NCBI GenBank assembly: GCA_014380825.1
Contig: JACMJD010000771.1
Span: 1 to 10,598 of the forward strand
DNA length: 10,598 bases
Direction of reading: 5' to 3'
Origin: Phycisphaerae bacterium
Lineage (GTDB): Bacteria > Planctomycetota > Phycisphaerae > Tepidisphaerales > Tepidisphaeraceae
The first letter of the stretch is position 1. Each line of letters starts with the position of its first letter. The notes under the pieces are model-generated. The model saw nothing but the letters and a program-made list of their open reading frames with translations, was not told the origin of the DNA and ran no database searches. The translations under genes were made by a program, and so were the position numbers. Shown here one piece after another: positions 2,256 to 7,455 of this stretch.

Positions 2256-3820
2256 CGCAGTTGTGCGTGCCCATCTTCGTCGAAGGTATCGAACAAGCGA
2301 AACGCAACGTAGCCGCCGCGATCGAAGCGGGAGCGGACATCGTCGAGCTTCGGCTCGACCTGGTTGCAAATTACGCAGACGTGAACGTCATTCGTGCCGG
2401 CCTGTCCGTGCCGATGATCCTCACGTGTCGATCGGTCGCTGAAGGCGGCGACGACGAGCGCAGCGACGAAGAGCGCATCGCGTTTCTCGAAAAGGCTTCG
2501 GCTTCAGGCACACCGTACGTCGACGTCGAGCTGCAAATGTACCAGCGCGTTCCTGCGATCGAAGCGGACATTCCGCGCCAACTGATCATCAGCGTACATG
2601 ACTTCAAGGGCCGGCCGTCGCGGCTCTACAGCTTGATCGACGAGATGAACCGCTCTCGCGCCAGTGTAAACAAGATCGCGTGGCAAGCCCGATCGATCCG
2701 CGACAACATTGATGCGTTCGAACTGCTGCAATCCCGACAGAAGTCCACGATCGCGCTGTGCATGGGCGAAGCCGGATTGATGAGCCGCGTGCTGGCGAAG
2801 AAGTTCGGCGCATTTCTCACGTTCGCATCGCTCCGCCCAACCGAAGCCACGGCGCCTGGCCAACCCACGATCGAAGAGATCAAGTGCCTGTACCGCTGGG
2901 ACGCGATCAACGAGAAGACAAAAGTCTTCGGCGTCGTCGGATCGCCCATCGGGCATTCGATGTCACCCGCCATTCACAACGCGGCGTTCGACTCAACCGG
3001 CTTCGACGGCGTGTATCTGCCGATGCTCGTGGAACCGAGCTACGAGAGCTTCAAGGCGTTCATGGAGAGTTTCCTCGCGTTCCCGTCCCTGGATCTCGCC
3101 GGGCTCTCGATCACGATCCCGCACAAAGAGAACGCGCTGCGATACCTGCAATCGAAGGGGGCGGCGATCGATCCGCTCGCGCAGAAAATCGGCGCGGTCA
3201 ACACGATCGTGATCACGCCAGCAGTTAGCGTCGGAGCGCAGCTCCGCGGATTCAACACGGATTACAATGCCATCCTCGATTGCATCACCGACAAGCTAAA
3301 CATCTCCCGCGACCAACTCTCCGACTATCGCGTCGCAATCATCGGCGCCGGCGGCACCGCGCGAACTGCGGTCGCGGCGCTCGCGGAATATGGCGCAACC
3401 GTCGTCATCTATAACCGGACCCGCGACAAATCGGATGCGTTAGCGAATGAGTTCAACAACAGATCCGGTCGCGTTGTCGCGGCGCGAATGGAAAAGCTCT
3501 GCGACAGTTGCTGTCACATCTTCATCAACGCGACACCCGTCGGCATGTCTCCGAACGTCGACGCCTCGCCGCTCGATGGGCAAACGGTGCATTTCACGCC
3601 GGACACGCTGGTGTTCGACACGATTTACAACCCCGCCGAGACGAAGCTGCTGCGTCAGGCGCGCGAACAAGGCGCAAAGACGATCGGCGGCAGCGAGATG
3701 TTCATCCGTCAGGCGGCTGAACAATTCCGCATTTGGACCGGCGTTGACGCGCCGGTTCAAGTCATGCGACAGGCGTTGCAGACACGTCTCGCCCAGCTTG
3801 CTGGTTCAACGTCCGAATAA
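2252..3820 (+). CDS. aroDE: Bifunctional 3-dehydroquinate dehydratase / shikimate dehydrogenase
   Basis: This fusion of 522 residues catalyses two consecutive shikimate-pathway steps: dehydroquinate to dehydroshikimate, then NADPH-dependent reduction to shikimate. Residues 1 to about 215 are a type I dehydroquinase, with ELRLD (32-36), TCRSVAEGG (58-66), catalytic H116 in ISVHDF, Schiff-base K141 in NKIAWQ, and MGEAGLMSR (171-179) followed by an APGQPT loop. Residues about 225-518 are shikimate dehydrogenase, with GSPIGHSMSPAIHN (230-243), ITIPHK with K292, GAVNT with N317, FNTD with D337, the dinucleotide loop GAGGTA (365-370), the NADP-type NRT (388-390), and the C-terminal QAAEQFRIWTG. The GTG start at 2252 overlaps the dapA stop. 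No Shine-Dalgarno is visible, so coupling is likely. An open frame extends upstream to 1901 but lies inside dapA. AroDE fusions are known from plants and chlamydiae. Confidence 0.95.
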   Translation: MTQLCVPIFVEGIEQAKRNVAAAIEAGADIVELRLDLVANYADVNVIRAGLSVPMILTCRSVAEGGDDERSDEERIAFLEKASASGTPYVDVELQMYQRVPAIEADIPRQLIISVHDFKGRPSRLYSLIDEMNRSRASVNKIAWQARSIRDNIDAFELLQSRQKSTIALCMGEAGLMSRVLAKKFGAFLTFASLRPTEATAPGQPTIEEIKCLYRWDAINEKTKVFGVVGSPIGHSMSPAIHNAAFDSTGFDGVYLPMLVEPSYESFKAFMESFLAFPSLDLAGLSITIPHKENALRYLQSKGAAIDPLAQKIGAVNTIVITPAVSVGAQLRGFNTDYNAILDCITDKLNISRDQLSDYRVAIIGAGGTARTAVAALAEYGATVVIYNRTRDKSDALANEFNNRSGRVVAARMEKLCDSCCHIFINATPVGMSPNVDASPLDGQTVHFTPDTLVFDTIYNPAETKLLRQAREQGAKTIGGSEMFIRQAAEQFRIWTGVDAPVQVMRQALQTRLAQLAGSTSE

Positions 3821-6024: not shown

Positions 6025-6702
6025 TTACGGGTCGACATTCACCGCCGGATGCGTTGCGGACGTCGGCGCGAGCGTCAGCTTCACGACCCTTTGCGCTTCC
6101 AGGCGGCGTTGCGTCAGCTCGTCGATGAACGTCACTTTCAACGTCAACATCTCGTGACGCGGGATCGTCTTCAGCGGAAGCGGCAGGACATATTCGTACA
6201 GCAGCGCGTGGCCGTACCAATGCTTTCGCGCCTCGTCGGTGCTGAATTCCCACCGGGCAACCAGCGGGGAATTGGGCGCGTTCAGATCAAAGGCTTCGAC
6301 GATAAACGACCCGGCCGCCTTCACGTCGTCGCCGGTTTCGTCGGTGGGAACGACGTAGACCTTCAGCGCGTCATCCGATTTCGAATCCGCCTTCAGCCGC
6401 GCCCCGCCGGTCAATCGGCCGATCTTCAGATCGTTCGCCGCGAAGAGCTTGGCGAGGCGATCATGAGGCAGCGTTTGCAGGGTGCCTTTGGATTCTTCCG
6501 CCGCGCGGAGCGCGTTCGTGTCGGTTTTGCGCGCGAGCTCAAGCTGCTCGATGCGCGACTGAAGCTCCTGGTTTTCTTTTCGGAGCGTGATGTTCGCCGC
6601 GTTGGGTTTGCTGCAGCCGGGGAGGAATAGAACCGCAGATGAACATAGATGAACACAGATGAGAGAAAAGACGAATGCGCCAATTCTCTTATCTGTGTTC
6701 AT
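6025..6702 (-). CDS. Putative lipoprotein with coiled coil and beta-rich domain; signal peptide from a repeat
   Basis: This 225-residue predicted lipoprotein has a charged start (K5, R6), a hydrophobic run over about residues 7-27 and the lipobox LPGC with C30. A coiled-coil-like segment follows (about 38-72, LRKENQELQSRIEQLELAR), then a domain (about 90-212) with LKIGRLTGG, VYVVPTDETGDDVKAAGS and the hydrophobic strand patterns of a beta-sandwich. I associate this layout with planctomycete surface proteins but cannot name a function. Residues 1-24 are encoded entirely by the palindromic repeat at 6631-6720, while L25-F26-L27-P28-G29-C30 lie just outside it. The ATG is 23 bases after the upstream clpP stop and has no Shine-Dalgarno; a stop codon lies three codons upstream in frame. 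Either the repeat supplied a new signal peptide, or the gene is now damaged at its 5' end. Confidence 0.75.
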   Translation of the reverse strand: MNTDKRIGAFVFSLICVHLCSSAVLFLPGCSKPNAANITLRKENQELQSRIEQLELARKTDTNALRAAEESKGTLQTLPHDRLAKLFAANDLKIGRLTGGARLKADSKSDDALKVYVVPTDETGDDVKAAGSFIVEAFDLNAPNSPLVARWEFSTDEARKHWYGHALLYEYVLPLPLKTIPRHEMLTLKVTFIDELTQRRLEAQRVVKLTLAPTSATHPAVNVDP

Positions 6703-6720
6703 CTGTGTTCATCTGTGGTT
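6631..6720. repeat. Palindromic element with arms of 10 nt tandem repeats
   Basis: The arms 6631-6665 and 6686-6720 pair at 32 of 35 positions. The right arm is three units of ATCTGTGTTC-like sequence (period 10) and the left arm carries the complementary GATGAACACA-like units. The three mismatches are all transitions that would be G-U wobbles in plus-strand RNA but A-C mismatches in the minus-strand transcript. The element joins the clpP stop region to the lipoprotein gene and encodes that protein's first 24 residues. Related ATGAACACAG palindromes are, from general knowledge, common in environmental bacterial genomes. Confidence 0.88.
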
Positions 6721-6725
6721 GAAAA

Positions 6726-7376
6726 TTATTTTTCGTCGTCGCCGCCGTCGTCATCGCGATTCTTCGCGACGGCGATGTCCGGGGCGCGATCGAGGATGCG
6801 ATCGGCACAGCCGTACGCGACGGCTTCTTCGGCGAACAGCCACTTGTTGCGATCGAAGTCGCGATGGATCTGCTCCGCCGGCTTCCCGGTCCAGTCGGCC
6901 ATCAGCTTGTACATGCGATCGCGCAAGCGAAGCATGTGTTGCGCTTCGATGCCCAGATCGGTGGCCGGGCCTTGCAGCACGCCGCCGATCAGCGGCTGGT
7001 GCAGCATGACCTGGCTGTTCTGAAGGACCGATCGCTTGCCCTTGGTGCCCGCCGCCAGCAGGATCGCGCCCATGCTCGCGGCCATGCCGATGCACGTGGT
7101 CGCGACGTCGCACCGCAGAAACTTCATCGTGTCGATGATACCAAAGCCCGAGCTTACGCTTCCGCCGGGCGAGTTGATGTAAAACTGAATGTCGCTCTTA
7201 GGATCTTCGTTCGACAGGAACAGAAGCTGAGCAATGATGACGTTCGCCGAGTCGTCCGTCACCGGCCCGCCGAGCACGATCACGCGGTCCTTGAGCAGGC
7301 GCGAGTAGATGTCATACGCGCGCTCGCCGCGTCCGGACTTTTCGATGACCATCGGAATCAAGGTATTGGATGCCAT
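6726..7376 (-). CDS. clpP: ATP-dependent Clp protease proteolytic subunit (second clpP of the pair)
   Basis: ClpP is the serine peptidase that forms the tetradecameric chamber of the Clp protease, fed by an AAA+ unfoldase (ClpX, ClpA or ClpC, none in this window). At 216 residues the length is typical. It has the standard N-terminus ([20 protein letters not shown]), the oxyanion strand SPGGSV (69-74), catalytic S101 in GMAASMGA, H126 in MLHQP and D173 in HRDFDR. The C-terminus is an Asp-rich tail. This is the more canonical of the two ClpPs. The ATG at 7376 has no clear Shine-Dalgarno and sits 12 bases after a palindrome; it is 79 bases downstream of the first clpP stop. The proteins probably form a mixed complex, as tandem ClpP1/ClpP2 do elsewhere (inference). 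Confidence 0.95.
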
Positions 7377-7388
7377 GAGTATCGTTCG

Positions 7389-7449
7389 TAATCACGTGAT
7401 TACGTGATGACGTGAAGCATTCTCACGTCATCACGTAATCACGTAATCA
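7389..7449. repeat. Palindromic element with arms of 8 nt tandem repeats between the clpP genes
   Basis: The arms 7389-7415 and 7423-7449 pair at 25 of 27 positions around a 7-base loop. The right arm is a clean 8-base tandem repeat (TCACGTCA, TCACGTAA, TCACGTAA, TCA). It fills most of the 79-base gap between the clpP genes: six bases from the upstream stop and 12 bases from the downstream ATG. The two mismatches would be G-U wobbles in the minus-strand transcript, so the mRNA could fold the full stem. No T-run is present. Confidence 0.88.
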
Positions 7450-7455
7450 AGTCCT

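Follow-up and report, generated by a model that had tools for sequence, protein, structure and literature searches.

In Yersinia, the predicted signal peptide of YPO1552 is formed in part by the mobile element YPAL/RU-2, and YPO2495 and YE2643 are further fusions to such an element for which a signal sequence is predicted (Delihas 2007, PMC2759123). Rickettsia palindromic elements (RPE), which are covered in a Delihas review (PMC2229807), are palindromic repeats that sit in frame within protein-coding genes, and intergenic palindromes of the repetitive extragenic palindrome (REP) or miniature inverted-repeat transposable element (MITE) type are short and present in many copies (PMC3733652). 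Here we describe a locus related to these systems in a 10,598-nucleotide (nt) stretch from a Phycisphaerae bacterium (contig JACMJD010000771.1 of assembly GCA_014380825.1), analyzed over its whole length and called the window below. In the window, clpP is followed by a palindromic repeat that codes for the N-terminus of a predicted lipoprotein. The most probable explanation (roughly 0.8) is that a multicopy palindromic repeat came to lie between these two genes and took over the role of the signal peptide, and that several repeat families have repeatedly done the same at this gene in related soil planctomycetes.

The locus resembles YPAL/RU-2 in that a small multicopy palindrome is fused at the N-terminus and gives a predicted signal peptide, and in that YPO1552-like proteins of other genera bear unrelated signal peptides. 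The YPAL/RU-2 fusions are, however, a few predicted cases in Yersinia, whereas here a single orthologous gene has changed its leader many times, with several repeat families taking part, and there are candidate cases at several unrelated exported proteins. RPE are tolerated as inserts within proteins, whereas the repeat of the window appears to become the leader and to displace the old one. REP/MITE-type palindromes share its shortness and high copy number; in contrast, its arms consist of 10-nt tandem units and enclose a variable loop. The features of the locus are as follows, with T1 as our own name for the repeat.

6726 to 7376, minus strand: clpP, directly upstream of the lipoprotein gene (PF00574, 8.8e-69).
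6631 to 6720, minus strand: palindromic repeat T1, recognized by repeat search, folding, the 10-nt period of its arms and a homologous multicopy family in relatives.
6025 to 6702, minus strand: lipoprotein open reading frame (ORF), 225 amino acids, with 301 homologues at E ≤ 0.001 and 22 invariant columns in 29 aligned rows.
6631 to 6702, minus strand: residues 1–24 (MNTDKRIGAFVFSLICVHLCSSAV), coded wholly by T1 and comprising the start codon, a charged n-region (K5 R6) and a hydrophobic region.
6613 to 6630, minus strand: LFLPGC, residues 25–30, the apparent leftover end of a signal peptide outside the repeat, with a lipobox-like LPGC and Cys30 as the expected first mature residue.
6025 to 6615, minus strand: mature lipoprotein, modeled by AlphaFold2 with a coiled coil (residues 35–71) and a beta-strand domain (91–208).

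The two arms of T1 (6684–6720 and 6631–6667) are 37 nt each and 92% complementary, and with the 16-nt loop the repeat measures 90 nt. On the coding strand it folds at −56.8 kcal/mol (z −13.65), and 0 of 200 shuffles were equally stable. The period match of the 10-nt units is 0.74 and 0.67 in the two arms, and the unit CAGATGAACACAGATGA occurs four times in the window at up to three mismatches, against 0.04 occurrences expected. Rfam 15 gave no match in the window at the gathering score. An earlier note, made from the sequence of this stretch, had placed codons 1–24 of the lipoprotein wholly inside this palindrome, and its coordinates proved correct: the ATG is at 6702, within T1, and codon 24 ends at 6631. 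The recognizable protein begins with LFLPGC directly behind the repeat, also as described there. The T1 peptide contains the parts of a signal peptide that the note had pointed out, a hydrophobic core preceded by K5 and R6, which fall within the first seven residues; it passed our own signal-peptide-like criterion, and a small residue precedes the cysteine ([AGS]C; here G29 C30). There is no in-frame ATG, GTG or TTG between T1 and the lipobox cysteine (CTA TTC CTC CCC GGC TGC), which bears out the claim that no other start is available there. A TGA is in frame three codons upstream of the ATG, where the open stretch reads TQ followed by MNTDK. With no usual start after T1 and a stop codon just before the ATG, the conserved protein can be read in this frame only with the T1-coded N-terminus.

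The lipoprotein gene begins close behind clpP, whose stop codon (6726–6728) is 23 nt upstream of the lipoprotein ATG; the palindrome begins 5 nt past the stop. The 301 homologues came from a sequence search, and a profile search gave 871 at E ≤ 1e-5; named sources are Tepidisphaeraceae, Phycisphaerales, Fontivita pretiosa and a soil metagenome. Cys30 is conserved in all 29 aligned homologues. No Pfam family scored above the cut-off for the lipoprotein. The AlphaFold2 model had a mean predicted local distance difference test score (pLDDT) of 81.4, with residues 1–9 and 18–29 below 50, and a fold search with it returned weak immunoglobulin- or beta-sandwich-like matches, none at E ≤ 0.001. The gene is present in 25 of 26 searched genomes of the order of genome G001 (the exception is G023), and clpP is upstream of it in 21 of the 25 loci of relatives, as in the window; at the other loci (L016, L017, L028 and L030) clpP was not found in the stretch examined. 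In three relatives (L012, L032 and L035) the lipoprotein start lies within an overlap with the clpP stop, so the two genes may originally have been translationally coupled.

The junctions between the two genes, taken from the clpP stop to the lipobox cysteine, were compared in the window and 21 relatives (n = 22) with 40 or 100 two-base-block shuffles each. A palindrome scored above every shuffle in 8 of the 22, and a ninth junction (L034) has a multicopy repeat. In five junctions the apparent leader is coded partly or wholly by a repeat. The junction palindrome is T1 in the window and in genome G015 (L023), a different palindrome codes MENSGWTMRQPALPSSILYLLSSLFFLPGC in G024 (L021), and the hydrophobic part of the leader is coded by nested repeats in G018 (L018) and by the multicopy repeat in G007 (L034). 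The palindrome of L027 is inside the leader, and those of L014, L022 and L033 are in the spacer with an ordinary leader after them. The other 13 junctions have neither a palindrome exceeding the shuffles nor a recognized repeat, and their stop-to-cysteine distance is 44–136 nt. Without the 90-nt repeat, this distance is 20 nt in the window and 23 nt in G015, less than in all 13 repeat-free junctions, so little of the old leader is left and the repeat replaced it rather than being merely inserted. The earlier note had suggested that a repeat inserted at the 5' end of the gene and was used as a substitute signal sequence. The substitution agrees with the orthologues, since repeat-free relatives carry different, ordinary-looking signal peptides at the same site behind clpP; the simple insertion does not hold, as it would leave the 20 nt.

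Leaders were collected from the best 120 of the 301 homologues of the sequence search and from 88 new ones among the 120 listed of the 871 of the profile search. A lipobox cysteine was recognizable in 206 homologues, and leaving out 19 with too-short leaders gave 187 for counting. P0121 and P0122 (another family) and P0017 and P0105 (no cysteine) were removed before the tree was made, and P0015 was unparsed in the leader comparison. The leaders of the 187 listed homologues comprised 123 ordinary-looking ones, 36 of T1 (MNTDK...ICVHLCSSVV), a count of proteins with an open frame in which broken T1 leaders would escape notice, and 28 read as other repeats, whose 11 types were assigned by eye from peptide motifs, apart from T1 and the types checked in DNA. 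Examples are MTNDESSSNDE...FVIRHSNLIRHSTFVIR, QRAAGNRQP...LPAACCLL and KVENGKWKM...FHFPFSIF. The T1 leader thus recurs in the lineage, for instance as a T1-type leader in Fontivita pretiosa (P0033), and is no accident of a single strain. All 36 T1 leaders have [AGS]C, 35 have lysine or arginine within the first seven residues, and 27 fit a strict PS51257-type lipobox. The T1 leaders of P0026 and P0155 have an apparent second repeat in the loop, a repeat within a repeat, and the nesting in L018 is similar.

The organization of T1 offers a likely reason why it can be read as a signal peptide. The first, incoming arm gives the ATG and polar residues, and the second, outgoing arm is hydrophobic in all frames; because the 10-nt unit is not a multiple of three, these frames are shifted versions of one hydrophobic cycle (ICVHLCSSVF). 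We simulated ORFs from the arms with random loops and scored them by our own criterion. With the window T1 arms 16,030 of 20,000 were signal-peptide-like, compared with 1,902 of 20,000 with base-shuffled arms (0.81 vs 0.10); the fractions were 0.33 vs 0.09 for the G015 copy of T1 and 0.22 vs 0.05 for the G024 element. The arms of four other elements did not beat their shuffles: the FVIRHS type (0.051 vs 0.047), the PAACC type (0.030 vs 0.045), L116 (0.001 vs 0.004) and a second palindrome of the window at 1259 (0.041 vs 0.053). The spacer palindromes of L022 and L033 scored 0 as leaders. The idea that any palindrome makes a signal peptide was rejected, since random palindromes reached just 1.1–1.2 times the value of random DNA (1.3 times with ATG fixed in the arm). 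These failures and the near equality of random palindromes and random DNA place the property in particular elements.

A net positive charge is found in all 29 loops of the lipoprotein T1 leaders but in 17 of the 23 genome copies with an open frame (Fisher p 0.005), which hints at selection on charge in the leader loops. The genome copies came from 118 T1 readings that included both arms; 47 of these were in frame and 23 were open, and open frames are over-represented among them because many loci were picked by peptide.

Copies of the donor elements are present elsewhere in their own genomes, with 13 matches in G024, 41 in G018, 38 in G007 and 58 in G015, counts that include the own locus and in which one copy may count on both strands. 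With 58 matches in G015, T1 is a multicopy palindrome in relatives, as expected of the small mobile palindromes of the MITE or Delihas type. The T1 unit is present in 48 of 397 genomes of the class, and 41 of 392 genomes of the phylum gave a match to a profile of T1 leaders; A2 and A4 include the G015 leader (P0088), so its top rank in the searches made with them is built in. The FVIRHS type is also multicopy (38 matches in G026, 16 in G001; 13 of 26 genomes at E ≤ 0.1). The PAACC type (10 of 26 genomes, 1–5 matches apiece) and the KWKVEN type (4 of 26 genomes) are weakly supported.

The history of the leaders was followed on a tree that compared the mature part of 206 rows, made with a quick method that starred 65 of 203 inner branches as well supported; gains and losses are not separable in its counts. 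The distribution of repeat and ordinary leaders required 32 changes, at least 14 of which are forced by starred branches, and all 13 leader states together required 37. The T1 state required 14 changes, five of them forced. The means with shuffled labels were 53.4 for repeat versus ordinary and 33.4 for T1, so the labels are clustered and part of the pattern is inherited vertically. In the 378 pairs formed by 28 T1 carriers whose parsed leaders start in MN, the first arm was 85% and the second 70% identical, the mature protein 52% and the loop 11%; pairs of ordinary leaders were 12% identical. Arm identity did not follow protein identity (rho −0.06; 0.71–0.76 in every bin), and loops resembled each other in 10 pairs only, all with a mature identity of at least 0.68. 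We infer that fresh insertions or conversion by other copies in the genome renewed the T1 arms, with inheritance among close relatives in addition; constraint on the arms themselves may be an alternative cause of their identity.

These data also bear on a single ancestral T1 insertion that was inherited vertically, with its sequence kept by selection on the peptide or the hairpin and without repeated recruitment of T1. The clustering of T1 carriers and the loops that close relatives have in common fit such a history. It would nevertheless have to accommodate at least five T1 changes forced by starred branches, though these are possibly losses, and arms whose identity stays flat with divergence while ordinary leaders are so dissimilar, and it leaves the other repeats at the same place unexplained. 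We therefore regard it as unlikely. A palindrome kept as a clpP transcription terminator or an mRNA-stabilizing hairpin, with coding as a by-product, would account for the spacer palindromes that precede ordinary leaders in L014, L022 and L033; but 13 of the 22 junctions have no palindrome above the shuffles and no recognized repeat, the spacer palindromes of L022 and L033 score 0 as leaders, and a terminator at the clpP end would cut off the lipoprotein, so this explanation is distinctly improbable. Least probable is that T1 merely destroyed the signal peptide of a decaying gene and that the ORF running across the repeat arose by chance, for although the hairpin covers the start codon, some homologues have very short annotated leaders (19 of 206) and T1 frames elsewhere in the genomes looked mostly meaningless, the mature protein is conserved among T1 carriers (52% mean pairwise identity), 22 columns are invariant over 29 homologues of both leader kinds, the parsed loops are net positive without exception, and T1 is in frame in divergent homologues (though only in-frame cases are listable as proteins).

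For replacement of the signal peptide by T1, the following mechanism is proposed. The first arm would give the start codon together with an n-region that is polar and positively charged (MNTDKR), the second arm would give the hydrophobic core (SLICVHLCSSAV), and the last codons of the old signal peptide (LFLPGC) the lipobox. Ribosomes finishing clpP would probably restart 23 nt on and open the outer stem of the hairpin. The T1-led protein would thus be translated, and its export by Sec and lipid attachment at Cys30 are predicted from sequence. Repeated replacement at this gene would be favored because repeats land in the short gap between clpP and the lipoprotein, because a signal peptide needs little beyond charge and hydrophobicity, and because the outgoing arm of T1 is hydrophobic in all frames.

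Several observations weigh against replacement. The start codon in the window is buried in a hairpin of about −57 kcal/mol, and no Shine-Dalgarno sequence was seen before the lipoprotein ATG. The LPGC of the window has proline at −2 and does not match the strict PS51257-type lipobox; proline at this position occurs in 3 of 36 T1 leaders and 3 of 123 ordinary leaders. The leader frames of L018 and L034 show no ATG in the 60 printed residues, so these genes would need a GTG or TTG start. The leaders annotated as too short to work (19 of the 206) include that of the closest homologue, P0002 (86%), and such leaders, e.g., VVLISGC, begin about where the repeat would end, so the T1 frame may be broken in some homologues. 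The assignment by eye of most other-repeat types counts here as well. Finally, 40 T1-peptide matches from 10 of 12 genomes searched, picked mainly for long open frames and judged by eye without homology search, were nearly all chance ORFs or lay before the gene's own start.

The sole possible real fusion among these 40 was L092 (G012), with a possible start in the second T1 arm (MSPICAHLCSSVATFL); its ORF is ABC transporter permease-like by our own reading. T1 recruitment outside the clpP-linked gene therefore looks rare. Fusions considered at L071, L093, L100 and L189 were rejected, as each of these genes has its own start behind the repeat. Judged from their sequences, candidates for T1 as the leader of unrelated exported proteins are an outer-membrane efflux lipoprotein on the minus strand of G025 with an apparent signal peptide from T1 (L138; PF02321, 5.2e-55), a DUF2961 lipoprotein with an apparent T1 leader and a second repeat (L145 in G019; PF11175, 3.7e-93), a candidate secreted protein with an apparent T1 leader ending in VVPSHAA (L186 in G548), and P0121 and P0122, which have apparent T1 leaders on another small lipoprotein family without a Pfam match. 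A protein search with residues 1–40 of P0020 yielded 13 candidates, from which 5 proteins were obtained, and was too insensitive for a survey of repeat peptides.

The window contains other features of its own. The palindrome at 1259–1343, which belongs to another repeat type (CCACAGAGGCACAGAGGGCACAGAG...), lies just upstream of dapA and is unfused to any gene of the window; its outgoing arm is hydrophobic in each of the three frames, one of which ends in a stop. A palindrome of 8-nt tandem units (ACGTAATC type) at 7391–7452 lies between two clpP genes and is not hydrophobic. Two adjacent thymidylate-kinase-like genes (PF02223) at 16–522 and 519–1241 overlap by 4 nt, and type I dehydroquinase and shikimate dehydrogenase domains are fused in one frame at 2258–3820.

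The T1 repeat and its peptide were not found in the open-licence papers searched. Within the literature surveyed, serial leader replacement by several repeat families at one gene and a frame-independent arm appear to be new, beyond the cases of Delihas. At slightly less than even odds, palindromic repeats could form an order-wide reservoir of ready-made signal peptides, with a polar first arm and a hydrophobic second arm of tandem units (10, 7 or 8 nt, not multiples of three) that works in nearly any frame; the leaders of exposed genes would then be swapped serially, with turnover by mobile elements rather than point mutation.

To our knowledge, the origin of new signal peptides is poorly documented. 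Here at least 14 well-supported switches between ordinary leaders and leaders from identifiable repeats are seen at one orthologous gene, which allows a direct comparison of where a leader came from, how much the export machinery tolerates and what became of the old leader. For annotators, the locus is a warning that the N-terminus of a lipoprotein can be real even where a repeat codes it. It also points to a specific role that a palindrome between genes may take on, and suggests that repetitive genomic "junk" palindromes may serve as ready-made address labels for proteins.
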